Of a stretch of 43,025 bases of DNA, positions 17,320-34,233 are shown piece after piece; the first letter of the stretch is position 1, and every line of letters starts with the position of its first letter. Both the position numbers and the translations under genes were made by a program. The stretch spans positions 1 through 43,025 of the IMG/VR virus record IMGVR_UViG_3300025112_000041; one strand, written 5' to 3'. The notes under the pieces are model-generated. The model saw nothing but the letters and a program-made list of their open reading frames with translations, did not search any database and was not told the DNA's origin. This DNA is from a virus.

Positions 17320-17336
17320 AGCAAGAATCGTGCCAA
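17320..17336 (-). promoter_or_regulatory. Sigma54-type promoter of the capsid operon
   Basis: Minus strand TTGGCACGATTCTTGCT: GG of the -24 element at 17334-17333 and GC of the -12 element at 17322-17321, with the exact 10-nt spacing between GG and GC. It matches the consensus TGGCACG-N4-TTGCW fully. Start of transcription expected near 17309, giving a leader of about 145 nt with a GC hairpin (GGGTA-AGGGCA-TACCC). TAGAAGAC lies 7 nt upstream (17344-17351). Confidence 0.85.
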
Positions 17337-17348
17337 GTTGGCTGTCTT

Positions 17349-18482
17349 CTAAAGATTCATCCAATCTGGCACACTAAGCTCATCTTCCGAATCTGCACCT
17401 GCGCTAGAAGATTTCCTGCGCGCTTTCGGTTCTTTGCGCTTTGCTTCTTTTGCTTTAGCGCTTTCAGAAGATGAATGTGCAGCCTGTAGCTGCAACGTTA
17501 CAAATAAATTAGAAGCAAGTTCCGCCATAGGGTGTTTGCGGAAGGTTTTAGGCAACGCCTCCGTAAAACCATCTTTTAGCTCTTGTATAGTTGTCGCGCC
17601 TGCATTGGGTACAACGATCTTTTCTTTCGCTACTTTCTCATCTGTTAGCCACGCAAAGTTCGCATTCTGTTCACGCTCAAGTAGCGTAACTGCATCGTTG
17701 TAGCTGCTTTTGTGTGTGTCGCTTACGCCGTTAAGATCATCTGTGAACTTGCGGCCAAGACCAACAGCTTCTTGTAACGCCATCTCCACATCTATCTCTG
17801 CTTGTTGCGTTGGCTTGAAAGAATTTTTTTGCATAACGAGCTGTCCCTTGTCGTTATAGCCTTCGATGTTTTGCCATGCGTCACCGTTGCGGATCTTTAA
17901 AAGCTGACTGCGCCAGTGTTGCTGCTCTTGTTGTGCTTGCGATAATTTACCGTAGATTTCTTTATAGTCTTCGCTTAGGATGTAACTATCAGGGTGGTCA
18001 GCAGTAATACGCTCTTTGTCACTTGTGCTATCTAGCTTCTGCTGAAGAGCGGCAGTCTCTTCTGTTCTTTTTGCAAAATGCTCAAATGCCTCATTCGACA
18101 TTTGCTTGAGGTACTTTGCATCTTCTGTGTTGAAGCGACTATAATCTCGTGCCTTAACAACTCTATCCGTAGCCTTCTTTAGAGTTGAAGACAAATCTTC
18201 ACTATCTTCAGCAGCCTCCTCTGCGTCCTCGCCATCCTCAGATTCTCCCTCTTCGTCAGCTTCCTCTTCTTCGAGATCTCCTTCAGGCAGTGCAACCTCT
18301 TCTGAAAGCTCTCCATCTGAATCTCCATCTGACTCTTCACTTTCGTTGTCTGCAACCACTCCTTCATCATCGTCTACAAGACTACCTTCTAGTGGGTTGA
18401 GTGTTGCTGTTGTTTGCTCTTCCTCGTTGGCTTGTTTGGTCAACGATTCCTCTACTTCCGTATTCTGCAATACTGTCGGCAT
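17349..18482 (-). CDS. Scaffolding protein, 377 aa
   Basis: An acidic, mostly helical protein: Glu/Asp-rich N-terminus (residues about 35-100, long D/E runs), coiled-coil middle, and a Lys/Arg-containing C-terminus (KAKEAKRKEPKARRKSSSAG) ending in SVPDWMNL. Scaffolds of portal-scaffold-capsid modules have this charge pattern, with the basic end binding the capsid. It lies between portal and capsid genes, as expected. Its stop codon TAG is part of the TAGAAGAC box upstream of the capsid promoter. No protease triad seen. Confidence 0.75.
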   Translation of the reverse strand: MPTVLQNTEVEESLTKQANEEEQTTATLNPLEGSLVDDDEGVVADNESEESDGDSDGELSEEVALPEGDLEEEEADEEGESEDGEDAEEAAEDSEDLSSTLKKATDRVVKARDYSRFNTEDAKYLKQMSNEAFEHFAKRTEETAALQQKLDSTSDKERITADHPDSYILSEDYKEIYGKLSQAQQEQQHWRSQLLKIRNGDAWQNIEGYNDKGQLVMQKNSFKPTQQAEIDVEMALQEAVGLGRKFTDDLNGVSDTHKSSYNDAVTLLEREQNANFAWLTDEKVAKEKIVVPNAGATTIQELKDGFTEALPKTFRKHPMAELASNLFVTLQLQAAHSSSESAKAKEAKRKEPKARRKSSSAGADSEDELSVPDWMNL

Positions 18483-18699
18483 CTTTAATGTGTGTTATGA
18501 TTTCGTCTAATTGTATAAGTTTCGCTACAAGACGCACAGTAATCTCTGGATTATCATGCTTTTGCGTAGCAAATTTTATTTCATTTAAGAGCTTTTCACG
18601 CTTCTCGTCAATAAACTCTAAAAAAATTCTTGTCTGTTGGCTATGCTGCCAACTTTCAACCTGTTGGCGCAGGAGTTCTCGGCTGCTGTTGCTGTGCAT
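18382..18699 (-). CDS. Small helical protein, 105 aa, overlapping portal and scaffold ends
   Basis: It fills the 173-nt gap between the portal stop (18656) and scaffold start (18482) and overlaps both. The central residues (about 8-75, ELLRQQVESWQHSQQTRIFL, EIKFATQKHDNPEITVRLVA) look like a real amphipathic helical protein. The last 33 residues are read from scaffold DNA and are low in complexity. No Shine-Dalgarno and no known family; possibly a connector or assembly helper. The gap would otherwise be noncoding, which is unusual here. Confidence 0.55.
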   Translation of the reverse strand: MHSNSSRELLRQQVESWQHSQQTRIFLEFIDEKREKLLNEIKFATQKHDNPEITVRLVAKLIQLDEIITHIKDADSIAEYGSRGIVDQTSQRGRANNSNTQPTRR

Positions 18700-20377
18700 T
18701 TTGTTGGCTTTGTCCTAGAATGTCTGCTACTTGCGCTTGTAGCATTTTTATCTGTTGCTCAAACGGCTGCGCTTCTTCAGTAAGCTGCCCTGTCTGCTGA
18801 TCGACAACTAGCGAGTTTACAACTTGCAACAATTGCTGTAGGAGCTGGTCTTTCTCGTTGCCTACTTGCAGCATCTTAGCGTAAGACTCACCTTCATCAG
18901 GAAACATAAGGCGCATCATGTTCTGTAAGAAGACGGGTGCAAGAGGGGTTTGCGACACAACTTGCCACGCCATCATCATCTTCTGTGACTTCTCTTGACG
19001 TTCGATAACGTCTACATCGCCAGCAGGTTTAATGTTAAATTCGTGATTAAGGAAAAGGTCAAGAGATGCGGCTGGGCGAAGTGCGCCTGCAACAACGCGA
19101 GACTGGTAGATACGCCAACACCACTCGTAGACATCCTTGAGAGCTATACTAAAGAGCGAAACTTGCGTAGACGATAGTTGCTGTGCTTCACTAGATGCTG
19201 CTTGAATCTCTGTTGCGGTCTTGCGACTATCCTTGCGGTTCATTGCCGCGTAGTTTATCTGCGACTGCTCCTGAGCATTCTGCGACATAAGTGACTGTAT
19301 TGCCGCTACCATAGATGTGTCAGGCGGTGTAAGCTGAAACTGTTTGATGTTCGCGTCGATTAACGCTCCCGGCTGAAAACGTACAGATGTTTGTACATTC
19401 GTATTGTTTGGGTCTTCGTTCTCTTTCGCAAAGTAGAAGTTTGCGGCGCGACGATGGGCAGTTACGAACGAAGACATCAGCGAGGTGATTGTCTCCTGTA
19501 CTGTGCGATCTGAGAAAGCGCGGCCTGTTGCGTTCTGTATAGCGCTGTCTTCCAGAATCATGTACGGGAATATAACATACGGGTAGTCTATCTCGTCTTG
19601 CAATGTCTCACCGTCGCGCCTGCCCAAGTACAAAGGCCGAGGCTCACGTAGCCAATCGTCACACTTTGTACAACATGACCATGCTACGAAGACTTTGTTC
19701 TCATGCTTGAACATTACCTTCTCTATTTCGTAAAGAGACTCTACATCCACGTAGTTTGCACTACTGCTGTCAGGGTTGTCGCCTAAAAGTATATCAACAA
19801 CATCTTCATTGAAGTCGTCGTTGTCAACCATGTCACGTAGCTGTAACGCTGTGAAGTAATGTCGGTGAGCAATCATCTCACACGCTTGTATATCTCGCGT
19901 GTCTGCAGGAAATCCAAAGTCTTCGTAGTTGACTGCTTCTACAGCAAAATGCCCAGACTTATCTTCGTCAAACTGCACTTCTGCAATACTGTAACCATGC
20001 AACTGCATACCGTCAATGATCTTAAACAACGGCACTTGCCAGCCGGAGTAACGTGTTTTGTCAGTGAAGTCACGCTCAAGCTCGCCTGTTGCAGTCGTTG
20101 GCTCTGTTATAGAGGTGAAGATTGCGCTGCGCCTGCTGCCGGTTATGTACGCTACATACTTAGACTGCTCGCGGCGGATGTTCGTGTCGATGATGTGCGC
20201 CGGGACAAGAAACTCGTCCTCATCAAGGTGGCCGTCCGAACGCTCCGCTTCAACATTAATGTCTAGTTTGCGCGAGTTGCGGTTTTCTGATGCTGTACTT
20301 CCTAACGTACCAATGACATCCAGCAACTCACGTATTTGCGTGGTTGCGTCCTCGTATTTTGTGAAATCCTTATCCAC
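18656..20377 (-). CDS. Portal protein, 573 aa
   Basis: A soluble protein of portal size, rich in helices, with MDKDFTKYEDATTQIRELLD at the N-terminus, a central region (YRYSGWQVPLFKIIDGMQLHGYSIAEVQF-like, residues about 105-135) typical of P22/N4-type portals, and a Gln-rich C-terminus (QSQQNAQQQQPRTPAPTG). It follows the large terminase gene (8-nt overlap) and precedes scaffold and capsid, the standard packaging order. It forms the dodecameric ring through which DNA enters and leaves and to which the tail hub attaches. Confidence 0.8.
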   Translation of the reverse strand: MDKDFTKYEDATTQIRELLDVIGTLGSTASENRNSRKLDINVEAERSDGHLDEDEFLVPAHIIDTNIRREQSKYVAYITGSRRSAIFTSITEPTTATGELERDFTDKTRYSGWQVPLFKIIDGMQLHGYSIAEVQFDEDKSGHFAVEAVNYEDFGFPADTRDIQACEMIAHRHYFTALQLRDMVDNDDFNEDVVDILLGDNPDSSSANYVDVESLYEIEKVMFKHENKVFVAWSCCTKCDDWLREPRPLYLGRRDGETLQDEIDYPYVIFPYMILEDSAIQNATGRAFSDRTVQETITSLMSSFVTAHRRAANFYFAKENEDPNNTNVQTSVRFQPGALIDANIKQFQLTPPDTSMVAAIQSLMSQNAQEQSQINYAAMNRKDSRKTATEIQAASSEAQQLSSTQVSLFSIALKDVYEWCWRIYQSRVVAGALRPAASLDLFLNHEFNIKPAGDVDVIERQEKSQKMMMAWQVVSQTPLAPVFLQNMMRLMFPDEGESYAKMLQVGNEKDQLLQQLLQVVNSLVVDQQTGQLTEEAQPFEQQIKMLQAQVADILGQSQQNAQQQQPRTPAPTG

Positions 20378-21917
20378 TTGCAGCTAATCTTTCGTTTAAT
20401 TGTTCTACTTCTTCAATAATCTCATCACTCCAGCCAGTAGATTTGAAGTACGGCTGAAAATCACGACGCAAACGAGATTCTAACGTAGGGTTGCGGTCAG
20501 GTTCTGGCTCGCTTATCTCATTTAGTTTGTACTGCACAACAAGCTCACGTGCAGCCATACGGCTAGGCAATATGCCACGGTAATCAGCGAAGGCAAGAAC
20601 AAAAGCATCAGCACGGTCAGGAGAGGCATGGCCTTTAGACTTTGCTTGACGTTTGCTTTCTAGTTGTATTTTGTTCTGCGGCGTAACTGTGTAATAACGC
20701 GATGCTAGCTGCTTGCGTAACGTAACGTCTGTGGGAATTATGATTTCGGCATTCTCTATGTGCCGCGCAATGCTGTACCACAACTCCGCACCTCTGTTAA
20801 GGTACGCCAGTTTGTTATAAGGCGCTGCTTGGTTCAGTACGTAGTTTACGTTCCAACCATCCCTGTTAAGTTGATCCAGTATGGGCTTGCCTAGTCCTCC
20901 AGCGTCACCGTATATGACGCTTTGTACATTGTCCAAGTCGTACTTATAAAAGACTTCCGCGAGTTTTTCTATGAGGATTGTTGTGTCATGGAACTTGAAT
21001 GCCTCAACACCTATAACCTTGTTTCCGTTACGTACGACAACGACTTGCTCGTCACCACCAGCAGAAAGATCAAGGCCAGCTATATTGTATGGCTCTTCAA
21101 CGTGTTCTATTTCGTACTTGTCAAGTTCTGCAATCGTCGAGAAGTTTATGACAACCTGCTCTTCCATGCCGCCAAACTCAGCCATTACCATAGAGCGATA
21201 GAGGGCGGAGTTCTCGCCGTACGTGTCGCGTATATCTGTTATATAGTCTTCGCTGAGATGTGGGCAGTCGAAAGCTGTTACGTGGTGCTGTTTCCAGATG
21301 CCGCCAACACAAGAGTTATAGAAATGTCCTGTAGGCAAGCCGGGGCTGCTTACGTCAATGCGTTTGGTGAAGCCTGTACAACGCGCAAGGGCCATAAATA
21401 TATCGTCAGGTATGGACTTTGCCTCACTAACTAGTATTGCAAACTGACCTTCTGGCACGGGCGGATGCCAACCCTCGGCACGGCCAGCTTCATCCGTCAC
21501 GAACATCTCTATCGCGGAACCATTGACAAGGTTCTCGTAGCGCCGATAGTTTTGCTTCCAAATCTGCGCCCCGAACATTTTGTTCTGCGCCGTTGTCAGT
21601 TGCTTGATGTACTTGTCCGTTTGCCGGTCTAGCTGGTTGCCAGAAGCGGACGTAACGACAGACAACGAGTTTTCATAGCGCAGTGAGAGCCATACCGCAC
21701 ATGGCGCAACGATGAAGTTATCCTTGCCAGAGCCATTGGCAGCGCGAACAACAGACTTATACGGTTTGTTTGACGTAGATGGCTTTGCGAAGTCGCGTAA
21801 TATCTCTACTTGCCAAGGATGCAATTTAACGTGGCCATCTAACAACGTATCGTCACACACAAGAAGCATCTCATGTGGATCAGCAAACTTAATTACGTTT
21901 TTCTCGTAGCTTAACAT
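20370..21917 (-). CDS. terL: Terminase large subunit (TerL), 515 aa
   Basis: ATPase plus nuclease that packages DNA through the portal. The N-terminal ATPase has a Walker A-like AANGSGKD (59-66) and ILVSEAKSI (161-169) in the Walker B position, with Glu165 as likely catalytic carboxylate. The C-terminal RNase H-like nuclease shows GLDLSAGGDE (Asp283), IYGDAGGLG (Asp338) and SPDRADAFVLA (Asp434/437), the three acidic positions expected for two-metal cleavage. Length is normal. It overlaps the putative small subunit upstream by 7 nt and the portal downstream by 8 nt. Confidence 0.92.
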   Translation of the reverse strand: MLSYEKNVIKFADPHEMLLVCDDTLLDGHVKLHPWQVEILRDFAKPSTSNKPYKSVVRAANGSGKDNFIVAPCAVWLSLRYENSLSVVTSASGNQLDRQTDKYIKQLTTAQNKMFGAQIWKQNYRRYENLVNGSAIEMFVTDEAGRAEGWHPPVPEGQFAILVSEAKSIPDDIFMALARCTGFTKRIDVSSPGLPTGHFYNSCVGGIWKQHHVTAFDCPHLSEDYITDIRDTYGENSALYRSMVMAEFGGMEEQVVINFSTIAELDKYEIEHVEEPYNIAGLDLSAGGDEQVVVVRNGNKVIGVEAFKFHDTTILIEKLAEVFYKYDLDNVQSVIYGDAGGLGKPILDQLNRDGWNVNYVLNQAAPYNKLAYLNRGAELWYSIARHIENAEIIIPTDVTLRKQLASRYYTVTPQNKIQLESKRQAKSKGHASPDRADAFVLAFADYRGILPSRMAARELVVQYKLNEISEPEPDRNPTLESRLRRDFQPYFKSTGWSDEIIEEVEQLNERLAASG

Positions 21918-22273
21918 GATAACGTAGCAGCTTGACCGTTGTTAATAACCTCTTGCGCCCGTTGCATCCGCTCCGTGAAGTCTGAGAAGTTTATACTGTG
22001 CTTCGTCTTCTCCTTATCGTACTGCAAACCAGCAAGGAACTTAGCTGCGTCATTACGCACACGCTCGTTCTCTGCATAGTTCATTAGTTCTATAAGAACG
22101 CGGACAGCGCTATCACCAAGGTCTTCCAACTTGTCGATAGCTTGGCTTGCGGAAGCAACTTCTGGTGAGACAAGATCAACAACTTCCTTATCGTAGCGTA
22201 GGTCTTCAGCGACTTCCTCATTAGAGAAGCCCATACGCTTTAACTGATATATCTGTTCGTTAGCTGCGCTCAT
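21911..22273 (-). CDS. Putative terminase small subunit, 120 aa
   Basis: A helical 120-aa protein, MSAANEQIYQLKRMGFSNEE then VAEDLRYDKEVVDL, that reads as a helix-turn-helix in the first 35 residues, then a helical oligomerisation region (residues 40-90). Position directly before TerL, with an overlap of 7 nt, is where the DNA-recognising small subunit normally lies. Motif support is limited, so this rests mainly on synteny. Confidence 0.6.
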   Translation of the reverse strand: MSAANEQIYQLKRMGFSNEEVAEDLRYDKEVVDLVSPEVASASQAIDKLEDLGDSAVRVLIELMNYAENERVRNDAAKFLAGLQYDKEKTKHSINFSDFTERMQRAQEVINNGQAATLSC

Positions 22274-25200
22274 GGCTCCGGCCCATCTCCATAATCTCTT
22301 ACAAGTCTACCACTTTCATCACGAATAAAATTACCATACTCATCCCGCGCCCACTTAAATGCTTGACCTTCTGCATCCAATTCTTCCAGGGTAACACCCA
22401 ACATTTCTCTATCAACATCAAAGTCTTTTTCTGAGAACTTAGAGTTAAAGTATTCATCTAATGATTCTTGTTTTGCATCTTTTAAACCTTCCAACTTAAT
22501 TCCCATACGATCTAGTATATCAATATTTTCCAAATCTAATCTACCTTCAATTTTATCACCAACACTCTCCTTAATAGTAAATTCCATAGCAAAATCACGA
22601 AGCATTTCTGGTAAAACATCACGCATCTTCTTCTGCGCTTCTGCGCTACGTTGTACATTATCATTATTAAGCCATGCCCTGTACAAAGCTTCCATAACAG
22701 AAATATTCGGATTCCTGTCTCTAGCAATTTTAAGTTGACGATTCAATGATTCTTTAATCTGATCTTTTGAAGCCCATGATCCCCAAACTTCAATCATTGT
22801 ATCAGAAAACTTGTCTACAAGTTTTTCCTCAATCTCTTTTGTTTTTTCGATATGTTCTTCTGGTGTTGGTACTGTTGGTAGCTTGGTTGTAAATGGCTTA
22901 TCTGGCGGTAGTACCGTTATCGGCGGTATCCAATCGACTGTCTCGTCAACGTCAGGTCTTGGGCCTTTGTAATCATCACCTTGCTCTTCTACCCACGCAT
23001 CAACCTCTTCTTTTGTCCATGTCTTGCCTGTCGGCGGTTCTGGTTCTCCTATTACGAAAGGAGTCTCACCTTTAGGTGCTTCACCCGTTGGTAATTCTAC
23101 CATTGGTAATTCTACCACAGTTGTGGGAATATCAGTTACTGGCTCACCAGTAATCGGTTCACCTTGTTGTAATGACTTCAAATAATCTTGTACTTCTGCT
23201 TCTGGTATAATTAGCCCAGCACTAAGCTCTTGTTTACCGATAGGAGTTTCTGAACCTGTATAGAAGTTTTCGCCACCCTTGTCGGGAAGATCGCTCTTTC
23301 TAACCTTTCCTTCTGTTAATGTACCTTCTCCTGTAGGTTCATAACCAGACGTAGGTATATGCTCAGGTAGTCGCCCATGTCTGCTCAGGAACGCATCCAT
23401 CGACACTTCCTGCTGTGCGTCACCAGCACCACCTTCTTCTGGATAAAGCTTTTTACGCCACCACTCTGCTGTCTGTCCGTGGAGTTTTTCAAAGCCCTCC
23501 TTCTCCTGTCCGACAAGTGATTGTAGCCTCTCTTTAATGCTTGCGTCTTTTGGAGGATTTTTGTCCATCTTATTAAGCGTGACGTTTAATAACGGTTTGA
23601 CAAAAGGACGCAAAACATTACCCGTAAATTCCGTAGCATTTTTTCTTATCCAACCAAGCTTAGTCGGATCAGCTTTGTTATACTCAGGGTGGTTATACCC
23701 AGATACGTTTATAGCGTCTTTAAGGAAATCGTTCAGTTCATTTACGGCTTGCAATCCAAGTATGGGCGGAAACTCAGCTGCAAGAAGAAGTGCAGGAAGT
23801 TGTATATCGCCATAGCCTTGTCTATCAAGCTCTTTAAAATCTAACGTTAGTACGTTTATAAGTGCTTGTGCATAACCTTTTATAGATAACCCAAACTCAT
23901 CACCCTCTGTAACAGAGCCTCGCCCACCCTTTCTTTCGGTAAAGCGTGTTAACTCGTCAACTACTCCATTAAGGATTTTACCAGAAGCAGACAACACACC
24001 ACCTACAGTTTCTCCAGCACTTCTGAGAAAGCCCTTTATCTTTCCAAGACCTGTTGTAACATTAGCAACTACGCCGGGATGTTTATAAAAAAGAAAGTTT
24101 CCTTCTGCATCTTCTGGAAATGGCCCGTAGATACCAGTTTGAGCTAAACCTGCACCTTCTTGAGATTCTCCAGATGCAGGGTCTTCACCTTTCCATTCAA
24201 AAGCGGGGCCAAAACCTCTGTGAACATCTGTCCAAAACGCTTCAGCGTCCTGCATCATTTCGTCTGTGCGGTCTTCTTGTAAGTCCATGTAATGTTCTTG
24301 CACATCATCGAAAAGGTTGTCTACATCAATTTCAAGTATCTCTGGTGTTATGTCAACATACGAAGGTGTACGTCGGCGATAAGGTTCTTCTGGCTTTGCT
24401 ATTTCTATACCACCTAAAACGTCTTCTGGTATCGTAGGGAAGTTTGCACCGAAGTAGTATTTAGATTCCGCAGGTTTTCCTAACCGTTGCCAAAGAACTT
24501 CTGGGCCGGTAAATACGTCTGCACCGCCCAGAAGTTCTTGCCGCACATCTGCATAACCTTGTGGGCCGCTGATATTAAAAGCATCTCCACTGCCTTGCAA
24601 ATACTTATTTGCCATATTAGATGTAGTAGATACTAGCGGCCTCGAAGTGACTAACCCTTGTGCAGGTTTTTTGTAAGCAAAAGGAGCCCAAGGAAAGTCA
24701 CTCAGTGGTGGATCGCTTACAGCTTCTTCTTCAGATGTGCTAAAAATTTCTTCACCAGCGATGTCATTTATAAAACCTTTTATTGCTATTTCTTCTGGGT
24801 CGATCAACTCGCCTGTTACGGTACTTACTGGTGGGTCTTCCGAGGAAGGTTGGTCGGCAACACTCTCTGGGTCTAAGATATTAACTCCCAACAGATCACC
24901 CGCTGTCGTTGTAATTACGCCAGCCGCAGGTGATGGTTGTGATGTTAGTTGTTCTTGCTTTGCTTCCTGTATTTTTTGCTTTGCTTCCTCTGCCTGCTGA
25001 GCAGCTAGCTTTTCTGCTTTTTCTACGCGAAGGCGTTCTTCTTCCTTCTCTTCAGCAATACGAATACGCTCTGCCTTTTCTTCTGCTTCAGCCTCTCGTT
25101 TACGTTTCTCTGCTTCTGCAGCTTGTTGGTCGGCTATCTTTTGTAGCCGACGAGCTTCTTCCTCTGCTTCGCGTTTAGCATTTGCCTCCGTTATTTTACG

Positions 25201-27015
25201 CGCAGCCTCTTGCGCCTCCGCAGCTTTGCGAGCATCTTCCTCCGCTTTTTCTTTTGCTATGCGAGCCTCTTCTTGTTTTTGCCGTGCAGCTTCAGCAGCT
25301 TCTTGTTGTCGTTTTTCTTCTGCTCGCTGAGCTGCTTCTACACGTAAACGCTCTTCCTCTGCATCTTGGTTAGCAATGTATTGTCCTTGGCGAGCTTTTT
25401 CACGTGCGTGGTAATCTGCGATAGCTTTTTCTTGTTTGGCTCGCGCAGCAGCTTCAGCCCTTTCAGTATCTTCTCTTTGCTTTGCAACTTGTGTTTTTGC
25501 CCATGCGTCCTGCTTTGCTGTCAACGCATCCTGCTCCGCTTGCCAAGCCGCGTCTTGTTCTGCTTGCCAAGCCGCTAGTTTATCAGCTTCAGCCTTTTGC
25601 CTAGCTTGCTCTGCGGCTTGTTCTGTGGCTAGTCTGTCAGCGTCAGCCTTCTGCTGTTTTGCATTTTCAGCTTCTTGTTCTTGTATAGCCTCGACATTAA
25701 GCTGCGTAAGCGTTTGCTGTAAAATTGGATCGTAAGCAGACCACTTTTGCCCCCAAGGACTTTCAATCGTTTCTGTTTCGTGACTAATAATATTACCAAA
25801 CGCATCTCTGGATATGTTTTCAGAAAATGATGGCCCTTGTGCATGTAAGTATTGAGCTACATTAGGTTTTGTAACCAGACGACCTTCACCGGGATTGCGT
25901 AACTCAGCGTCAGCACCTTCTCCACTTACAGTGTAATTTCTGCCTAGAGCTTCATCAGGCTGCGTATAACCAGCAGGGGCTACACCAGCTTCGTTAAGAT
26001 TTTTTGCAAGAGTTTCTAGCCCTTGTTTACCGTAGCCACTCAATTCCGTAAGTGCAGTTATGTAAGCTCCCACGTCAAAAGATGTCGGCGCTGCAGAAGT
26101 AGCGGTAGTTGGTGTTACACCGTATTTTGTATATTCGTTTGCAGCATAGTTTGGATCAAGCCATTCAGGAGAAATACGCCTACCACCAGCACTAACTTTA
26201 CCAGAAGCTAGATTCATTGGAAAAGGAATAGGTTCACCAGCAGCATAGGGGCCACGTGCGCTTTCTGCTGTAAGCCATAAAACGTTATTTAGTTCTTCTG
26301 TTGATATATGTGAAAGATCTGGAATGGCGCTTTTTGGTGCTTGTTGATAACGATAACCTTTTAACCAAAGATCGGGCGCTTCTGGTAAAGATTTCCATTC
26401 GTCAGTAATACGCCCTGGGCTGCCGGGTGTTATTACTCTGTACTCTTCCATAGGCGCTGCTGGCGTTGCTTCAGGAAAAACATCAGTACCTATCGTAGAC
26501 CCTGTAATATCTAGTGCTGAAATCGGAGAGCTGCTTGTTGTAATTGTTGGCGTTTCGGTGTTACTTGCTTGCTGCGCAGCTTGTCGAGCAACTTCTGCAT
26601 CATACGCTACTGTTCCTTTTTGTAGTGGCTGTGACTTTAGTTCAGTTGTAGGACGCCATTGATCGCTACCGAAACCACTACCAAAGCCACTACCACTGTA
26701 GCTTGTTTGCACAGGCGGCTTAGGTGTTAGTACGTTAGTAAGCGCAGGCCACATTGCTTCGTAACTAGCACGTTTGCCTGCCATGTTCGGCGCTTGTTGC
26801 GCGTAACGAACATCTGACTCAGTTAGCGGAAACCATTGCCTTTGATTTGCGGTAGGTTCCCAGCTTGTAGCTCGAAAGCCTTTATCTCCAAGAGATTGAA
26901 AATTTGCGTCTGGAAATTGCTGACCTAGCTCCGCCGTTAGCGCTTCATAGCCACCCGCTGCGGGAAGCTTTGTAAGCGCTTCTATAAAAGCATCAACCGT
27001 ATATGGCTCTGGCAT
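22270..27015 (-). CDS. Very large protein with long Ala/Glu/Lys/Gln coiled coil, 1581 aa
   Basis: First large gene of the operon driven by the 27,137 promoter. Residues 1-430 are mixed and contain Pro/Thr-rich linkers. Residues about 435-690 form an extended coiled coil rich in EEARRKAEE-like heptads. The rest includes an amphipathic segment (GFLRSAGETVGGVLSASGKI) and several Pro/Glu-rich stretches. No enzyme motif was found. Its ATG follows directly on the stop of a 34-aa ORF (TAG ATG). Size suggests a virion or internal protein, but position ahead of terminase is unusual for ejection proteins, which lie at the other end here. Function unknown. Confidence 0.7.
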   Translation of the reverse strand: MPEPYTVDAFIEALTKLPAAGGYEALTAELGQQFPDANFQSLGDKGFRATSWEPTANQRQWFPLTESDVRYAQQAPNMAGKRASYEAMWPALTNVLTPKPPVQTSYSGSGFGSGFGSDQWRPTTELKSQPLQKGTVAYDAEVARQAAQQASNTETPTITTSSSPISALDITGSTIGTDVFPEATPAAPMEEYRVITPGSPGRITDEWKSLPEAPDLWLKGYRYQQAPKSAIPDLSHISTEELNNVLWLTAESARGPYAAGEPIPFPMNLASGKVSAGGRRISPEWLDPNYAANEYTKYGVTPTTATSAAPTSFDVGAYITALTELSGYGKQGLETLAKNLNEAGVAPAGYTQPDEALGRNYTVSGEGADAELRNPGEGRLVTKPNVAQYLHAQGPSFSENISRDAFGNIISHETETIESPWGQKWSAYDPILQQTLTQLNVEAIQEQEAENAKQQKADADRLATEQAAEQARQKAEADKLAAWQAEQDAAWQAEQDALTAKQDAWAKTQVAKQREDTERAEAAARAKQEKAIADYHAREKARQGQYIANQDAEEERLRVEAAQRAEEKRQQEAAEAARQKQEEARIAKEKAEEDARKAAEAQEAARKITEANAKREAEEEARRLQKIADQQAAEAEKRKREAEAEEKAERIRIAEEKEEERLRVEKAEKLAAQQAEEAKQKIQEAKQEQLTSQPSPAAGVITTTAGDLLGVNILDPESVADQPSSEDPPVSTVTGELIDPEEIAIKGFINDIAGEEIFSTSEEEAVSDPPLSDFPWAPFAYKKPAQGLVTSRPLVSTTSNMANKYLQGSGDAFNISGPQGYADVRQELLGGADVFTGPEVLWQRLGKPAESKYYFGANFPTIPEDVLGGIEIAKPEEPYRRRTPSYVDITPEILEIDVDNLFDDVQEHYMDLQEDRTDEMMQDAEAFWTDVHRGFGPAFEWKGEDPASGESQEGAGLAQTGIYGPFPEDAEGNFLFYKHPGVVANVTTGLGKIKGFLRSAGETVGGVLSASGKILNGVVDELTRFTERKGGRGSVTEGDEFGLSIKGYAQALINVLTLDFKELDRQGYGDIQLPALLLAAEFPPILGLQAVNELNDFLKDAINVSGYNHPEYNKADPTKLGWIRKNATEFTGNVLRPFVKPLLNVTLNKMDKNPPKDASIKERLQSLVGQEKEGFEKLHGQTAEWWRKKLYPEEGGAGDAQQEVSMDAFLSRHGRLPEHIPTSGYEPTGEGTLTEGKVRKSDLPDKGGENFYTGSETPIGKQELSAGLIIPEAEVQDYLKSLQQGEPITGEPVTDIPTTVVELPMVELPTGEAPKGETPFVIGEPEPPTGKTWTKEEVDAWVEEQGDDYKGPRPDVDETVDWIPPITVLPPDKPFTTKLPTVPTPEEHIEKTKEIEEKLVDKFSDTMIEVWGSWASKDQIKESLNRQLKIARDRNPNISVMEALYRAWLNNDNVQRSAEAQKKMRDVLPEMLRDFAMEFTIKESVGDKIEGRLDLENIDILDRMGIKLEGLKDAKQESLDEYFNSKFSEKDFDVDREMLGVTLEELDAEGQAFKWARDEYGNFIRDESGRLVRDYGDGPEP

Positions 27016-27120: not shown

Positions 27121-27135
27121 AGCATCTTACTATAT

Positions 27136-27152: not shown

Positions 27153-27338
27153 CTCTCGCGTCTTCTACTGCTGTGTATTTTTTAGCTTATGAACTTTCAC
27201 AATTCTAGAAGATACCTAAAAACATTTAGAGGTCATAATTTCAGAGGAGGTTATAGTTCTGCAGTGCTTTACATTCGGGGTCATACCCCGACAAACTAGA
27301 TCGAGCGCAGCGAGACAAATTTTTTGTGTCTAGCGTAG

Positions 27339-27367
27339 AAAAAAGCCCAGCGCATGAAACGCTGGAC
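27339..27367 (-). terminator. Rho-independent terminator of the two-gene minus operon
   Basis: On the minus strand GTCCAGCG-TTTCATG-CGCTGGGC (27367-27345), an 8-bp stem with one G-T pair, is followed by TTTTTT (27344-27339). It lies 22 nt after the stop of the 90-aa gene and separates that operon from the late sigma54 operon. Confidence 0.85.
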
Positions 27368-27388
27368 CTGATAAGATCGAGCGGTGGG

Positions 27389-28703: not shown

Positions 28704-28913
28704 ATGAAAGTAACTTGTAACAAATGCGGTAGCGTAAGCACTACAGATTGTGAGTACGCTATAGAACGTGGATGGAATACGGTAAAGCAATGCCTATGCT
28801 GCAATCCGCGCATGGCAAAACAACTCGACGATGCGCTACGCGCTGCAGATCTACCTGCTGCGAAGCTGCCTACGCTAAGTGACTGCGTACCCAGTTGGAG
28901 GAGGCTAGCATGA
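28704..28913 (+). CDS. Small zinc-ribbon-like protein, 69 aa
   Basis: MKVTCNKCGSVSTTDCEYAI followed by CLCCNP: a Cys-x2-Cys and a Cys-x-Cys-Cys group about 20 residues apart, the pattern of a small treble-clef or zinc ribbon. The start is ATG 28704, with AAAGGAAG in ribosome-binding position, rather than TTG 28671. First gene of the early operon. Possibly a nucleic-acid or host-protein binder; target unknown. Confidence 0.65.
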   Translation: MKVTCNKCGSVSTTDCEYAIERGWNTVKQCLCCNPRMAKQLDDALRAADLPAAKLPTLSDCVPSWRRLA

Positions 28914-29155
28914 CATACGATGATATTAAGAATCACGAGTATCATACGCTAACGCCTGCGTATGGTAAAGATTACACCAGCAAAGATAGCGTAGAGGAAG
29001 CCTTGCGTAGCGGTAAGGACTTCGTTATCCACGTGCTGGGAGGTAGAACGTATTGTAGCATACGTGACTTCCGCGCAAACGATGCGCTAAATGTACACTA
29101 CAACAAACGAACCGAGCTAGCAGCATTTACGCTAACAGAGGACGGGAAAATATGA
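28910..29155 (+). CDS. Hypothetical early protein, 81 aa
   Basis: ATG at 28910 overlaps the stop of the zinc-ribbon gene; a strong GGAGGAGG lies upstream. MTYDDIKNHEYHTLTPAYGK, then alternating helix and strand (DFVIHVLGGRTYCSIRDFRA). Soluble, with a pattern suggesting a small alpha/beta fold. No family recognised. Confidence 0.65.
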   Translation: MTYDDIKNHEYHTLTPAYGKDYTSKDSVEEALRSGKDFVIHVLGGRTYCSIRDFRANDALNVHYNKRTELAAFTLTEDGKI

Positions 29156-29253
29156 TAGACGAACTCCGCAAGCTACACCGTCAAGCAACGCTAGCGTCCT
29201 TAGTGGCGCTAGCGGTCTTTGCTTTCGTAACACTACTTTTAATTCTAACATAA
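29152..29253 (+). CDS. 33-aa single-pass membrane peptide
   Basis: MIDELRKLHRQATLASLVAL then AVFAFVTLLLILT: a charged N-terminus and one C-terminal hydrophobic helix ending at the stop codon. Start overlaps the previous stop by 4 nt. Translated early with small host-takeover-type genes; role unknown. Confidence 0.5.
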   Translation: MIDELRKLHRQATLASLVALAVFAFVTLLLILT

Positions 29254-29261
29254 GAGACAAC

Positions 29262-29705
29262 ATGATTACACTAGATGAAAGATTGTTCGCTAGAATGGTC
29301 ATCGGTAGCAAAACATATGTTATCGTAGATCAAGAAACAAAGGATGCTATCGACAACAGCGACTACGGTAGCAAGGAGATGGTATGCGAGAACGACCCCG
29401 ATACGGTAGGCTGGGCGGGGCCAGCATTAGGTCAGGTGCATAGCGTAGGTGATGGGTTGTATCGTCTGTGGATGCGTAGCGAGTGGGTGCTTGTCGGCAA
29501 CCTAGCGCGAGATCGTGGCGCAGAGCGAGATCGCAAGTGCGCGGCGGCGGATGCTAGCAAAGCAGCAAAGATAGCAGCAGAGCAGAAGGCTGTCGACGAT
29601 CTGAAAACTACGCTACGCAAGCAAGGTATCAAGGAAGAAATCATAACGAAATTTTTCTCTAGCATGAAAGCGGATGAAATCCGCAGTATGCTAGGGCTAA
29701 CATAA
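29262..29705 (+). CDS. Hypothetical early protein, 147 aa
   Basis: The N-terminal 80 residues are an alpha/beta-like domain (MITLDERLFARMVIGSKTYV), followed by a charged coiled-coil helix (ERDRKCAAADASKAAKIAAE) and a short C-terminal helical unit (IKEEIITKFFSSMKADEIRS). Soluble. The start lies just 8 nt after the membrane peptide gene, without a clear Shine-Dalgarno. No family recognised. Confidence 0.65.
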   Translation: MITLDERLFARMVIGSKTYVIVDQETKDAIDNSDYGSKEMVCENDPDTVGWAGPALGQVHSVGDGLYRLWMRSEWVLVGNLARDRGAERDRKCAAADASKAAKIAAEQKAVDDLKTTLRKQGIKEEIITKFFSSMKADEIRSMLGLT

Positions 29706-29717
29706 CAAACAAGCACA

Positions 29718-29999
29718 ATGCAAAACATAACAACATATAGCGTATGCACCGACTGTTACATGCTAGAAGCAACGGGAGATGCTACGTTCCTAGATTACTA
29801 CTACGGCATCGACAAAGCTAAGGATTGCTTAGATGCTATTGAAATAGGATACAAACGTATCATTAATGCAGGAGGATACGGAAAAGGCAACGGCTACGTT
29901 ATAGCTGGAGAACTATTGTATACGTTCGACAAACAACCTTGCGAATGCTGCATTAGTCAACTGCATGGCCCACGCTATACATTACACCACTTAGCATAA
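29718..29999 (+). CDS. Small Cys-rich protein, 93 aa (CxCC-LxGxR type)
   Basis: The N-terminus has SVCTDCYM (C-x-x-C) and the C-terminus PCECCISQLHGPRYTLHHLA. A C-terminal motif of Ser/Lys-x-PC-x-CC-x5-G-x-R with His is familiar from small proteins of many phages and mycobacteriophage-like genomes and probably binds metal. The leader CATAACAAACAAGCAC (29701-29716) is repeated before the next gene. Function unknown. Confidence 0.65.
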   Translation: MQNITTYSVCTDCYMLEATGDATFLDYYYGIDKAKDCLDAIEIGYKRIINAGGYGKGNGYVIAGELLYTFDKQPCECCISQLHGPRYTLHHLA

Positions 30000-30011
30000 C
30001 AAACAAGCACT

Positions 30012-31535
30012 ATGAAACTACCTACAGATGATAACACCGTTGTTACGCTAAAGGAATTTGCTTTCCAAACTAGCGCATCGGCGGAACTAACCGACAAGCT
30101 ACGCACCAACCAAGGCGCATTGCTACAGGGCGGCACAGGCACAGGCAAGACGTATATCGTAGCGCAAACGCTACAAGACATTTTGCCGGAGTTAATGAAA
30201 GACGATGAGCTAGGCAAGGGGCCGATCCCTATCTTATGGATTGCCCCTGCCGCAACCATTGTTCAAACACAGCGCGTGCTTAAAGCATACGGACTGACGG
30301 CTAAGGTAATGGTCATGTCCTACTCTGCACTTACATCGCCTAAGACAGGCGGCACAATGTTCTACACTACGAAGACAGAGGTAGTGTGGGGTCAGGAGCA
30401 TACCGTATACAAATGGTCGGAGTTTATGCTACCGCGTCTCGTAGTGTTTGATGAGTGTCAGGCGTTGAAGAACGACGGTAGCTCCCGCACTAGCATAGCA
30501 CGGCATCTACCACCAAAGAACGTCAAACGTTTGTTTGTCTCCGCTACGCCATACCAGCGTGTATGCGAGGCGCGGACGGTGATGACAGGTGTGGGTATGC
30601 GCTCACGCTACAACGTCTTGCCCCTAACAGAGGGAACAGCACCTAGCGTACTCCGCTCTCTTGCAACATACGGTAACACCTCAGCATACAGCCCCCGCGC
30701 TATGGAAAAGATCAAGGATGTTATGGGGCCGTATACCGTAGCGCTTAAGAACATACGCTTCAAGTTTAAGGCGCGTACGGAATGTGTTCTGATAGATTTC
30801 CGCAACGATAAGGAAAGAGATGCATACAATAACGCTTACGAGGAATACCTAGAGTATCTGTATAGGCTACGCGGACAGACAGGGCATGGGATTGTAGCTG
30901 CTAGGCTAGTGGCTATGATGAAGTTTCGGCAAAAGGCAGAAGAGATCCGCTCTCCGCTAGTAGCTGCCCGTGCGCGTAATGCAGTCGTGGAAGGCTCGCA
31001 AGCTATCATCGCTAGCAACTTCAAAGGTATGCTACGTGGTGTGTGGCTAGCGTTGACGAAAACCTACGGCATAGACGAAGATAAGATAGGCTATGTCACG
31101 GGCGGTCAAACGCCAGAGGCAAGGCAACGTAGCGTAGATGCCTTTCAGCGTGGCGAGAAAGATTATATGCTACTGACGGTAGCAGCAGGTGGCGTAGGCA
31201 TTAGCTTGCATCACGAAACAGAAAAGGCTAGGCCACGGCATATCATACTGCCGCCCACTTGGTCTGCAATAGACCTCATCCAATGCGTAGGGCGGTCGCA
31301 TCGCATAACCTCCATGTCTAACACATTGCAGGAAGTCCTATGGTACAGGAACACTATTGAAGAACGTGTCGCCGCTGTGGTAAAGAACAAGGTCAGTTGC
31401 ATAAACAAAGCTGTATCTGCTAAGGAACAATGGGCTAGCCTGTTTGCTCCTGACGTAGGCGACGACCTCGGCAACGTAGACAAGGATGCCGACGATGAGA
31501 TAGACTATGGCGTAGACGAAGGGATGCTGGAATGA
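30012..31535 (+). CDS. Superfamily 2 DNA/RNA helicase (Snf2/DEAD-like), 507 aa
   Basis: Two RecA-like domains. Domain 1: Walker A GGTGTGKT (40-47), motif Ia IAPAATIVQTQ, motif II DECQ (147-150), motif III SATP (177-180). Domain 2: LTVAAGGVGISLHHE and VGRSHRI near the C-terminus, the Snf2-type motif V/VI with arginine finger. ATP-dependent translocase or helicase, possibly for replication fork repair or displacing host proteins. The leader repeats the SD-less CATAACAAACAAGCAC of the preceding gene. It overlaps the next gene by ATGA. It is expressed early, ahead of and separate from the polymerase module. Confidence 0.88.
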   Translation: MKLPTDDNTVVTLKEFAFQTSASAELTDKLRTNQGALLQGGTGTGKTYIVAQTLQDILPELMKDDELGKGPIPILWIAPAATIVQTQRVLKAYGLTAKVMVMSYSALTSPKTGGTMFYTTKTEVVWGQEHTVYKWSEFMLPRLVVFDECQALKNDGSSRTSIARHLPPKNVKRLFVSATPYQRVCEARTVMTGVGMRSRYNVLPLTEGTAPSVLRSLATYGNTSAYSPRAMEKIKDVMGPYTVALKNIRFKFKARTECVLIDFRNDKERDAYNNAYEEYLEYLYRLRGQTGHGIVAARLVAMMKFRQKAEEIRSPLVAARARNAVVEGSQAIIASNFKGMLRGVWLALTKTYGIDEDKIGYVTGGQTPEARQRSVDAFQRGEKDYMLLTVAAGGVGISLHHETEKARPRHIILPPTWSAIDLIQCVGRSHRITSMSNTLQEVLWYRNTIEERVAAVVKNKVSCINKAVSAKEQWASLFAPDVGDDLGNVDKDADDEIDYGVDEGMLE

Positions 31536-31774
31536 GAAACTATGAGCTAGAACATCTGTGGGATACGCTAGAATATCTCGGTAGCTTAGATCCGTGGAGT
31601 GAGTTTGCACACACGCGCCACGGCTGGCATGATCGTAGCGTAGCTGAATGCTCACAACGTACCGCAGGCCACGATGACTACGGTATCGTACACGACCCGT
31701 GCGTGGTACACCTAAAGAAGTACGAGAGCGTAGCCATGTGGCTATGGCAGGAGGGCAACGATTGGAAATGCTAG
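31532..31774 (+). CDS. Hypothetical early protein, 80 aa
   Basis: MRNYELEHLWDTLEYLGSLD, then acidic and His-rich segments (HTRHGWHDRSVAECSQRTAG) and a Trp-rich end (VAMWLWQEGNDWKC). Translationally coupled to the helicase stop. Soluble; the His/Cys content could bind metal. Family unknown. Confidence 0.6.
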   Translation: MRNYELEHLWDTLEYLGSLDPWSEFAHTRHGWHDRSVAECSQRTAGHDDYGIVHDPCVVHLKKYESVAMWLWQEGNDWKC

Positions 31775-31803
31775 GACTATCGCCTACGCAAGTGCGAAAG
31801 GTG

Positions 31804-31832
31804 TTGACAACTAGGAGCAGCTATGCTACTAT
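31804..31832 (+). promoter_or_regulatory. Early sigma70 promoter (extended -10)
   Basis: TTGACA (31804-31809), 17-nt spacer, TACTAT (31827-31832) with TG at 31824-31825. Sits in the gap before the gene starting at 31905, between two operon parts. Expected start about 31839. Confidence 0.7.
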
Positions 31833-31904
31833 GTTACCAGATTTTAGGTGCGGCATAGGCAAAGGGTCTATGCTAGCCTGACAACAAATGAAAGGAAAAC
31901 CAGT

Positions 31905-32126
31905 ATGATACTAAACGAAGCTATCATAGATTACGAGAAAGCACACAGCGTACGCATAGACTACGCCAGACCACAAGAATGGTTTAACGCTGTGTTAGCT
32001 GCGAAAGTTAACATAAACCCACAAGAATACGTATGGGTTTACGACGGCGGCCTGTTCGGCAAGCCGCTACACAAGGACACTATCATAGCAGACTACTACG
32101 TACGTAGAGAGGAGCTTGAGCTATGA
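31905..32126 (+). CDS. Hypothetical early protein, 73 aa
   Basis: Start chosen at ATG 31905, with AAAGGAAAA upstream and a promoter at 31804; a longer frame from 31848 would begin only about 10 nt after the predicted transcription start. MILNEAIIDYEKAHSVRIDY, then EWFNAVLAAKV and alternating aromatic/charged residues (WVYDGGLFGKPLHKDTIIAD). A small alpha/beta protein. Coupled by ATGA to the next gene. Function unknown. Confidence 0.65.
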   Translation: MILNEAIIDYEKAHSVRIDYARPQEWFNAVLAAKVNINPQEYVWVYDGGLFGKPLHKDTIIADYYVRREELEL

Positions 32127-32479
32127 CAAAAGACGAACAAAAAGCAATACAGCCTCTGCTAGATGAGGTTAATAGCCTAAGCAAACGAAAGGCATTCAGA
32201 ATGGCAAACGATACCAACAATCCAATATCTAACGTAGACGTAGGCTTCAACGTAATGTTCCCTAACGAATGGGAAGTTAGCGTACGTTGGAGCAAGCATC
32301 ACCAATGCGACGGCGGTAAGACTACCGTAGAGGTTGCGGTCTTCGACCCGGACGACAACTGGTACACGCTAGACGATGATGATAAGCTATGCACAAACCA
32401 AGAACGTGACTCAGACGTTATGGGCTACGTTACACCAGAAACACTTACTAGAATATTACAGGAGGTAGTAAAGCAATGA
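32123..32479 (+). CDS. Hypothetical early protein, 118 aa
   Basis: A helical start (MTKDEQKAIQPLLDEVNSLS), then a beta-rich half (NVMFPNEWEVSVRWSKHHQC, TVEVAVFDPDDNWYTLDDDD). Acidic and soluble. Overlaps both neighbours by 4 nt, so it is part of a tightly coupled early cluster. No family recognised. Confidence 0.65.
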   Translation: MTKDEQKAIQPLLDEVNSLSKRKAFRMANDTNNPISNVDVGFNVMFPNEWEVSVRWSKHHQCDGGKTTVEVAVFDPDDNWYTLDDDDKLCTNQERDSDVMGYVTPETLTRILQEVVKQ

Positions 32480-32694
32480 ACGATAACGAACGAGAACTAT
32501 GGGTGCATAACGACGAAGGACTATACGCTATGTGGCAAGCATCTAGGCTAGGTATGCGTAGATTCATACGTATGCACAGAACAATAATAGACAACTACAT
32601 AAGCCAGAGTTTAGCTTGTAAACATGACATACAACCTGCTTGCAAGCTATACGCACAATACTATAACCTAACATATCATGAGAAAAATAACTAG
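32476..32694 (+). CDS. Hypothetical early protein, 72 aa
   Basis: MNDNERELWVHNDEGLYAMW, then helical residues rich in Arg, Met and Tyr with Cys at about 57 and 64. AGGAGG lies 10 nt upstream. Its 3' end overlaps the next gene by 17 nt. Soluble and unassigned. Confidence 0.6.
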   Translation: MNDNERELWVHNDEGLYAMWQASRLGMRRFIRMHRTIIDNYISQSLACKHDIQPACKLYAQYYNLTYHEKNN

Positions 32695-33070
32695 ACTAGC
32701 CGCTCGCGCTTTCATAGAAGGGCGAAGGTTTCGCAGAGACAACACGTTCGTTACGGTCAGCGAGTATCATATCAAGTTTGAAGGCAGATCAAAAGAAGAA
32801 ATTCTTGCTATACTTGAACGATACAGCACAACTGTACATAGCCAACGGATGTGGCTACATGGCAACCTAATAGCAGAGAACACTAGTGCTAAAGGGCTAC
32901 GCATCACGCTAGCAGGTTGGCCTACAACTACCACACGTGAGCGTTTGAACGGCTTGCTAACGGAGCTAGGCAAACGTGAGGGTATCTGGCAACGTAACCA
33001 CGAGCAATACTACGGCACACACGACGATAACAGAGTCATAGACTCTAGCGAATGGATAACAGTATCATGA
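32678..33070 (+). CDS. Hypothetical early protein, 130 aa
   Basis: MRKITRLAARAFIEGRRFRR at the N-terminus is strongly basic; the middle has beta strands (NTFVTVSEYHIKFEG) and helical SKEEILAILERY, and the C-terminal half a repeat of strand-helix (LRITLAGWPTTTTRERLNGL). This alternation could be a ferredoxin-like or small nucleic-acid-binding fold. No known motif. Ends in an ATGA overlap with the next gene. Confidence 0.6.
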   Translation: MRKITRLAARAFIEGRRFRRDNTFVTVSEYHIKFEGRSKEEILAILERYSTTVHSQRMWLHGNLIAENTSAKGLRITLAGWPTTTTRERLNGLLTELGKREGIWQRNHEQYYGTHDDNRVIDSSEWITVS

Positions 33071-33441
33071 CAAATAAAACAACAATAAAGGAGGACTTAG
33101 CGTGGCTGATGGATAACAGTCTAAAGCAACGGTTTAGCGATAGCAGTCTTGCGAGATCGCGTAAGCCAAGCGCCTATAATAGCGAGAGTTGCCCTCAGAT
33201 AGCGTTGCTTGCCCCTCGCACACACGCGGCACAGCCATATAATGAGCGCGAAGTTATCCTCACGAACGAGCCTGCATACGTTACAGTTAAGCTGAGTGAA
33301 GGTTGGGAAGCTATGCTAAAGACACACTACGATGAGCGCATACTGCTTGACAAGGGGCCGGTGCATAGGTACAATGGCTGGGTGCGTAAGATAGTCGAAC
33401 CTATCTACGCTGCTGTTCGCAGACAACGAAGGAAATACTAA
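33067..33441 (+). CDS. Hypothetical early protein, 124 aa
   Basis: Start at 33067 overlaps the previous stop (ATGA), preferred over 33052. MTNKTTIKEDLAWLMDNSLK, a Ser/Arg-rich middle, and a C-terminus (GWEAMLKTHYDERILLDKGP then VRRQRRKY) that is basic. The 3' part contains a consensus-like sigma70 promoter for the activator gene that follows with a TAATG overlap. Function unknown. Confidence 0.6.
   Translation: MTNKTTIKEDLAWLMDNSLKQRFSDSSLARSRKPSAYNSESCPQIALLAPRTHAAQPYNEREVILTNEPAYVTVKLSEGWEAMLKTHYDERILLDKGPVHRYNGWVRKIVEPIYAAVRRQRRKY
33347..33375 (+). promoter_or_regulatory. Sigma70 promoter ahead of the sigma54-activator gene
   Basis: TTGACA (33347-33352), exactly 17 nt, TACAAT (33370-33375): 11 of 12 consensus bases. 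It lies inside the previous coding region, about 66 nt before the activator ATG, so the activator can be made from its own early transcript. Confidence 0.7.
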
Positions 33442-34175
33442 TGGCTACCAGCACAGAAGTTAATAGGCTTAACAAACGCCTAGCTGCCTACCGTACCATC
33501 GACGACTACATGAAGCAGTTGTTAAAGAACACTATCACGTTGTCGTTTCGTAGTGAACCCGTGCTTATCACAGGCGCTACCGGCACAGGTAAGGAGATAA
33601 TAGCTAGCCTGCTGCACGGCACGCAGCTAAAAGATATAGTTACCGTAAACACAACAGCCGTAACAAACACGCTCTTCGAGTCTGAGCTATTCGGCCACAT
33701 AAAGGGTAGCTTCACAGGTGCGATTCGTGACCGCAAAGGCTTGGTAGATGTCGCTAAGAACGGTACGCTATTCCTAGATGAGGTAGGTGATATGCCGCTA
33801 GACTTACAAGCTAAGATACTACGCCTCGTACAGTTCGGAACGTACCGTCCTATAGGAGATAACGTAACGCGCAACACAAACTGCCGTATCGTAGCAGCAA
33901 CCTGCAAACCTATAAACAAACTCATCGCAGAAGGTAAGTTCCGTGACGATTTATACTACCGTCTGGCAGCGTTCCGCCTACACATCACTCCGCTATCAGA
34001 ACGTCGCCACGATGCGAAGCATTTTCTTGTAACACATCCGCTCTGGCATAAGATACCAAGCGATCATAAAGAAAAGTTCCTAACGTACGTTAACAACGAC
34101 CCTATGAACGGCAATTACCGTGAGCTAGAACAACTAATGTTACGATATGAAGTTCTAGAACAACTACCCGGCTGA
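33441..34175 (+). CDS. Stand-alone sigma54-dependent transcription activator (NtrC-type AAA+ domain), 244 aa
   Basis: Remodels sigma54-RNA polymerase by ATP hydrolysis to open -24/-12 promoters. Key elements are in canonical order: Walker A GATGTGKE (45-52), ESELFGH (80-86), the sigma54-contact loop GSFTGA (89-94, consensus GAFTGA), Walker B TLFLDE (109-114), sensor I AATC (152-155, usually AATN), arginine fingers R168 and R174 in GKFRDDLYYRL, and sensor II GNYREL (224-229). It has neither the N-terminal receiver/GAF domain nor the C-terminal Fis-type helix-turn-helix; the chain ends 15 residues after sensor II. It is thus likely constitutive and may work from solution or with another DNA-binding protein. 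It ends the early operon and is followed within 45 nt by a sigma54-type promoter. Confidence 0.93.
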   Translation: MATSTEVNRLNKRLAAYRTIDDYMKQLLKNTITLSFRSEPVLITGATGTGKEIIASLLHGTQLKDIVTVNTTAVTNTLFESELFGHIKGSFTGAIRDRKGLVDVAKNGTLFLDEVGDMPLDLQAKILRLVQFGTYRPIGDNVTRNTNCRIVAATCKPINKLIAEGKFRDDLYYRLAAFRLHITPLSERRHDAKHFLVTHPLWHKIPSDHKEKFLTYVNNDPMNGNYRELEQLMLRYEVLEQLPG

Positions 34176-34216
34176 CTTCATGTGCTAGAAAATAAAAAAC
34201 ACAAAAGATAACAAAT

Positions 34217-34233
34217 CTGGCACGATTCCTGCT
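34217..34233 (+). promoter_or_regulatory. Sigma54-type promoter of the 135-aa gene / replication module
   Basis: CTGGCACGATTCCTGCT: -24 GG at 34219-34220, -12 GC at 34231-34232, correct spacing, one deviation (C for T at the first T of TTGC). CAAAAGAT, related to TAGAAGAC, lies 7 nt upstream (34202-34209). TTATATAAGATG follows, as at 27,137. Expected start about 34244; a GCCCC-AATC-GGGG hairpin (34250-34262) begins the leader. Confidence 0.83.

Follow-up and report, generated by a model that had tools for sequence, protein, structure and literature searches.

What is the role of a short sequence box that stands at one fixed distance from three sigma54-type promoters of an uncultivated phage? 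The box was found in a 43,025-base record of an uncultivated virus (IMG/VR record IMGVR_UViG_3300025112_000041, analyzed over its whole length and called the window here), which belongs to a family of marine phages. Transcription in this genome runs in two outward blocks, with the replication genes on the plus strand and the virion genes on the minus strand. The promoters of one genome share the same box, another lineage has a different word in its place, and the sigma54 activator ATPase encoded by these phages is reduced to its AAA+ domain. The fixed position, the sharing within genomes, the change between lineages and the architecture of the ATPase are directly observed; the element is well supported, and the mechanism moderately so. 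Judging from the sequences, a regulator very probably binds the box, and we give about an even chance (0.5) to the reading that this regulator is a DNA-binding protein specific to the lineage, which would bind close to the promoter and tether or assist the phage ATPase at the sigma54-RNA polymerase.

Three sigma54 promoters and their upstream box

The promoter elements and boxes of the window are listed below, with the box numbering taking the GG of the -24 element as -25/-24.

17351-17344, minus strand: box A, TAGAAGAC, at about -42 to -35, followed by 7 nt and then TTGGCACGATTCTTGC
17336-17321, minus strand: sigma54 -24/-12 element A, TTGGCACGATTCTTGC, with 0 mismatches, preceding the putative major capsid gene
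27167-27160, minus strand: box B, TAGAAGAC, followed by 7 nt and then TTGGCACGATTCTTGC
27152-27137, minus strand: sigma54 -24/-12 element B, TTGGCACGATTCTTGC, preceding the packaging/virion operon
34202-34209, plus strand: box C, CAAAAGAT, degenerate in this genome, followed by 7 nt and then CTGGCACGATTCCTGC
34217-34232, plus strand: sigma54 -24/-12 element C, CTGGCACGATTCCTGC, preceding the replication operon

The original prediction, made from the sequence of the window, had recognized three sigma54-type promoters, and these are borne out by a matrix scan. At a score of at least 18.5, the scan returns exactly three strong sites in the window, A, B and C, where 0.30 are expected in first-order random sequence; at a score of at least 19.5, 0.09 sites are expected in random sequence of the same dinucleotide make-up. 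The core of a sigma54 (-24/-12) promoter, YTGGCAC-N5-TTGC, is present in the window. Since the gene for a sigma54 activator (33441-34175) ends just before promoter C, the sigma54 reading has more than promoter-like words behind it.

The box coordinates of the original prediction, its 7-nt gap at A and B and its match of 5 of 8 bases between CAAAAGAT and TAGAAGAC all proved exact, and the distance from the start of the box to TTGGCAC is exactly 15 nt at A, B and C. Box A had also been said to include a stop codon, and its TAG does end the upstream gene 17349-18482. The closing suggestion, that related TATATA/AAGATG bases follow the -12 element, proved weak: TAAGATG occurs at both B and C, but at offsets that differ by one base, and the bases after -12 are conserved only among orthologous C promoters.

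Chance agreement was assessed by a rotation test, in which upstream sequences were randomly rotated 5,000 times and the statistic was the best 8-column agreement at equal offset. With the window taken by itself, A, B and C agree best at the box, a level equalled in 20 of 5,000 rotations, so that the box is suggestive there and no proof. With nine genomes pooled, the window included, the maximum over all offsets was reached in 0/5,000 rotations, and the result was again 0/5,000 for the eight genomes without the window; a clade 3 genome by itself was not significant (252/5,000).

The box in related phages

Relatives were gathered by searching viral contigs for matches to the activator, the capsid protein, the terminase and the first protein of the C operon. 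According to these searches and a reading of the promoters in the relatives, all three promoters recur across the family at corresponding places: A is found some 4.4-4.6 kb past the start of the terminase gene, B some 3.2-5.2 kb ahead of that start, and C ahead of the ortholog of gene 34304, with a sigma54 site in 77/77 readable C loci, many of them near-identical.

Clade 1 is that of the window, and in its members G008, G018 and L149 the box of A, of B and also of C reads TAGAAGAT or TAGAAGAC. The orthologous A box reads TAGAAGAT in these three genomes, CAGAAGTT in G006 and, one base further out, TAGAAGTT in L034. In G006 and L020 the C box is TAGAAGTT, whose reverse complement AACTTCTA stands at B, with further copies 20 and 22 bp upstream of the flipped B box; box C is TAGAAGAT or TAGAAGTT in many relatives. 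The word of clade 2 is YAACWGTT overall, appearing as YAACTGTT or CAACAGTT at C; B has this word too, accompanied by another copy 20-22 bp further upstream. Promoter A has gone from the capsid leader in this clade, and the box has gone too. Where a promoter has such extra copies, 20-22 bp or more upstream, the box belongs to a small array, in which it is the copy nearest the promoter.

The position of the box varies little, starting 15 nt and sometimes 14-16 nt before the Y of YTGGCAC in clades 1 and 2. All clade-1 C loci (43/43) fit [TC]A[AG]A[AG][AG]NN at the box offset, and all clade-2 C loci (21/21) fit AACNNTT at the box position, numbers that amount to 13 and 11 sequences once those more than 90% identical are merged. 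Non-orthologous promoter pairs from the same genome have an identity of 0.61-1.00 at -14 to -8 before TTGGCAC and are at background, about 0.25, at other upstream positions; between clades, the identity is only 0.10-0.28 at the central columns, -13 to -11. The peak within genomes, together with the low identity between clades, points to an element common to the promoters of one phage and differing by lineage. Among nine A and B promoters of clade 1, with the flipped B sites of G006 and L020 excluded, the information content of columns -14 to -8 is 0.8-1.8 bits, comparable to that of the -24/-12 core, against about 0 in the 7-nt spacer.

The expectation that box, spacing and -24/-12 element co-vary among relatives thus holds for clades 1 and 2. 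Relatives outside both keep the promoters with no box shared by all of them, so that the box is not universal in this system. The relatives do support the earlier suggestion that a fixed position fits a bound factor next to the polymerase better than a distant enhancer: the box keeps to 14-16 nt before YTGGCAC, and is no position-flexible upstream activating sequence (UAS) some 100-150 bp away. Nor does it resemble the A/T-rich tract without specificity of an UP element, which is contacted by the C-terminal domain of the polymerase alpha subunit (alpha-CTD), as the box columns are specific and lineage-dependent.

Further copies and an A-rich tract accompany the boxes of the window:

34186..34201, plus strand: A-rich tract and a further, weak box copy (TAGAAAAT), preceding box C
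27206..27213, plus strand: extra box copy in inverted orientation, ATCTTCTA when read on the promoter strand, 61 nt ahead of the TTGGCAC of B
17405..17412, plus strand: inverted extra box copy, 76 nt before the TTGGCAC of A, within the upstream gene

The A-tract is kept only at the C promoters of clades 1 and 2, the A and B promoters having none. The inverted copy near A may be incidental, as it lies in coding sequence, and the inverted copies near A and B of the window are only tentative members of the box system.

The activator ATPase and other genes near the promoters

Two genes and a promoter bear on how the sigma54 promoters might be served:

33441..34175, plus strand: sigma54 activator ATPase (a bacterial enhancer-binding protein, bEBP), 244 aa, AAA+ domain only; Pfam PF00158 (Sigma54_activat), 1.1e-52, residues 22-180
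33347..33375, plus strand: sigma70-like promoter, TTGACA-17-TACAAT, before the bEBP gene and inside coding sequence
34787..35359, plus strand: conserved 190-aa protein, predicted to be helix-turn-helix/winged-helix-like, a weak candidate for the box reader

The window ATPase has a Walker A motif (GATGTGKE), the loop GSFTGA with S in place of A, a Walker B motif (LFLDE) and an R finger (FRDDLYYR), after which 70 aa remain; aligned to NtrC, AtoC and ZraR, it ends ahead of their helix-turn-helix (HTH). The four motifs recur in all 22 ATPase copies, with loops of the GAFTGA type (GSFTGA, GSYTGA or similar) and a single Walker A missed by a simple pattern, and every copy stops 64-84 aa after the R finger. 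Neither a regulatory/receiver domain nor a DNA-binding domain was found in any of the 22 copies, nor did the window yield another sigma54 activator. A PF00158 gene occurs in the window and also in 19 of the 24 related records, of which several are fragments. The sigma70-like promoter retains 10-11 of 12 positions in close relatives and is lost in L020 and G018.

A tblastn search of the ATPase against named phages gave matches of less than 60% identity, many in records resembling bacterial contigs, and in the five such records that were read ordinary bacterial genes surround the match. The INPHARED entries AGRM01000002, AFYI01000005, CAKLQH020000012 and similar ones are apparent bacterial contigs (with NtrC, AtoC and neighbouring genes). 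Such contigs, filed as phages, inflate tallies of phage sigma54 activators.

The protein encoded at 34787-35359 is the only universally conserved unknown protein with DNA-binding-like features. Its AlphaFold models contain helix-turn-helix/winged-helix-like elements at moderate confidence (pLDDT 74 and 70), with no significant fold match in the PDB or among viral models and no sequence relative in the PDB. Several of its many non-significant PDB fold matches are winged-helix proteins, judged from their names, and its segment TGYSAGTLYVKL weakly resembles the HTH of NtrC C-termini in a pairwise comparison (P 0.011, probability 3.8). The protein is a weak lead for the reader and no identification. 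Among the small unknown genes near promoters B and C, of the early region and of the replication operon, none matched an HTH family. Gene 33052-33441, which overlaps the start of the ATPase gene, was rejected as a reader, being confined to clade 1 and not HTH-like by eye.

The genes that anchor the three promoters are the following:

15702..17165, minus strand: putative major capsid protein, 487 aa, first gene after promoter A; assigned by position only, with no family match
20370..21917, minus strand: terminase large subunit, part of the promoter B operon; matched by tblastn to annotated phage terminases
34304..34711, plus strand: first gene behind promoter C, 135 aa, conserved family-wide

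The operon after B closes with the terminase and portal genes; the first 500 residues of its protein 22270-27015, used as a query, found no match in viral contigs. The putative major capsid protein has no relative among named phages, and a search of 84,980 bacterial and archaeal genomes found no relative of the first C-operon protein.

Other features were seen close to the promoters. The capsid leader (17228-17310, minus strand) contains the hairpins GGGUA-AGGGCA-UACCC and GCGA-AGGGCA-UCGC, with the same loop AGGGCA, and then GCGU...ACGC. The leader stems of clade 3 are GCCA/UGGC and GUGA/UCAC with the loop unchanged, so that the pairs covary, and clade 2 has retained the leader despite its loss of promoter A. 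The hairpins, for which no Rfam match was found, are possibly an RNA-protein site controlling capsid expression. Ahead of promoter B, a block like CTATAACCYTCTCTGRAAAAATGACC (about 27220-27265, minus strand) is conserved in clades 1, 2 and 3, whereas other upstream sequence is not, and a terminator-like hairpin (27343-27369, minus strand) lies just upstream of the promoter. In L127, a relative without the TAGAAGAY box, a perfect inverted repeat, TTGTGAATTGAC-AG-GTCAATTCACAA, is found about 3.85 kb before the terminase start, just upstream of the promoter B sigma54 site. A second terminator-like hairpin (34727-34756, plus strand) separates the first gene behind promoter C from the next one and would hold down expression of the remaining C operon.

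Readings of the box and known activators

The near-constant spacing suggests contact over a short fixed distance, and the flipped and repeated copies, two helical turns apart, suggest a protein on one face of duplex DNA. On the reading that we favor, a sequence-specific protein, most probably phage-encoded, would bind the box on a fixed DNA face just upstream of the sigma54-RNA polymerase and would tether or assist the activator ATPase of the phage, which itself has no DNA-binding domain. The enhancer-binding protein would then be split into two parts, and its DNA site would adjoin the polymerase rather than lie 100-150 bp off. The early operon would supply the ATPase, which would open C for replication, B for packaging and virion genes and A for the capsid, in a host that presumably has sigma54. 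A fuller picture, in which a stripped sigma54 ATPase and a fast-evolving DNA-binding adaptor, docked beside the polymerase in a class-II-like manner, make up a split viral enhancer-binding protein with a lineage-private regulon, is offered tentatively and at somewhat less than even odds.

Several observations weigh against a tether at the box. In clade 3 (G015, G016), TCTYATAAAAT stands at both A and B, with CTACCCCC at C instead. The distant members G001, G003, G005 and L127-L130 keep sigma54 sites, and no evident common box was found in them; since their promoters persist without a visible box, the activator can apparently work without one. The box is therefore an addition to the family's sigma54 use and not a condition of it, or else it is too diverged to be seen in the distant members. 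The HTH helix of the 34787-35359 protein is nearly unchanged across clades whose box-position sequences differ, and because it fails to track the box the protein is not claimed as the reader. Finally, the AAA+ domain of PspF retains activity in vitro when the DNA-binding domain is absent (PMC9770992), so that a tether is not strictly required.

The box might instead be the operator of a phage repressor or timing switch, with a regulator made during infection holding back or shutting off A, B and C. This would account equally well for the lineage-specific sharing and the fixed position, and the winged-helix-like candidate is encoded behind promoter C, as feedback regulators often are; we nonetheless regard it as unlikely, since the box stands clear of the -24/-12 element, where repressors more usually cover the core or the start site, and its spacing is constant to one base, which a simple repressor does not need. 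Rather unlikely, too, is a reading of the box by a host factor or by the host polymerase through a UP-like contact of its alpha C-terminal domains, with lineages differing as their hosts do. The box does sit where upstream polymerase contacts fall, and C promoters have a conserved A-tract at -28 to -20 before TTGGCAC, but, unlike an A/T-rich UP element, the box has a specific mixed sequence, which is replaced as a whole from one related phage to another, and the A-tract is missing at A and B promoters. The A-tract at C, as a separate feature, could be a UP-type element.

It is improbable that the activator ATPase itself reads the box, through its AAA+ domain or a short N-terminal tail. It alone among the regulators is shared by the entire family, and it has to be close to the promoter, but 0 of 22 copies have a DNA-binding domain, and the known AAA+ contact with DNA is at -11/-12, through the GAFTGA loop (PMC7175178). 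An action at another level, for instance within a readthrough RNA, as a signal for replication or packaging or through a coding constraint, could be imagined from the stop codon within box A and from box C, which in some relatives falls at the 3' end of the ATPase gene. We think this very improbable, as the G006 stop codon is shifted about 20 nt upstream with the distance from box to promoter unchanged, the B boxes are non-coding, and flipped copies suit duplex DNA more than RNA; the box as a mere stop codon was rejected because in G006 the stop moved and the box stayed. Coincidence, or inherited similarity without function, could draw on the moderate agreement in the window alone (20/5,000) and is hardly credible against the 0/5,000 in eight other genomes and against orthologous C promoters that retain the box next to a spacer that varies.

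Phages usually redirect transcription by a polymerase of their own, a new sigma factor, an anti-sigma factor or an antiterminator. Among the open-licence papers listed in full-text searches, none reports a phage family running its genes on host sigma54 with its own stripped activator, and within that literature the arrangement appears to be undescribed. FleT is the only known bEBP without both regulatory and DNA-binding domains, according to a review (PMC7175178), and in Rhodobacter (Cereibacter) sphaeroides it acts in complex with a second activator, FleQ (PMC7277832, PMC9542535). FleT and the phage ATPase have the same domain make-up, but FleQ is itself a sigma54 activator, whereas no such second protein was found in the phage window and the box reader is putative; FleQ and FleT serve flagellar genes, and the phage system virion and replication genes. 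FlgR of Helicobacter and CtcC of Chlamydia, group 5 bEBPs, activate sigma54 polymerase without a DNA-binding domain (PMC7175178). Both keep a receiver domain and two-component control, unlike the phage ATPase, which has no receiver domain. FlgR is termed enhancer-independent in a title cited in PMC3844500, in contrast to the phages of clades 1 and 2 with their fixed-distance box.

Classic sites of the NtrC/PspF type work through DNA looping from about 100-150 bp upstream (PMC7057263, PMC9770992). Like such a UAS, the phage box is a short site upstream of the -24/-12 element, sometimes palindromic or repeated, that serves the promoters of one regulon; unlike it, the box is nearly constant at -42 to -35. 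Class II activator sites of sigma70 promoters are centred near -40, abut the polymerase and have strict spacing. The phage box is similar to these in position and spacing, while the sigma factor and the activation chemistry differ, and a class II-like arrangement at sigma54 promoters was not met in the literature found. The fixed box would bear on how activators without a DNA-binding domain stay at their own promoters, and the natural box variants of related phages offer ready-made specificity swaps.

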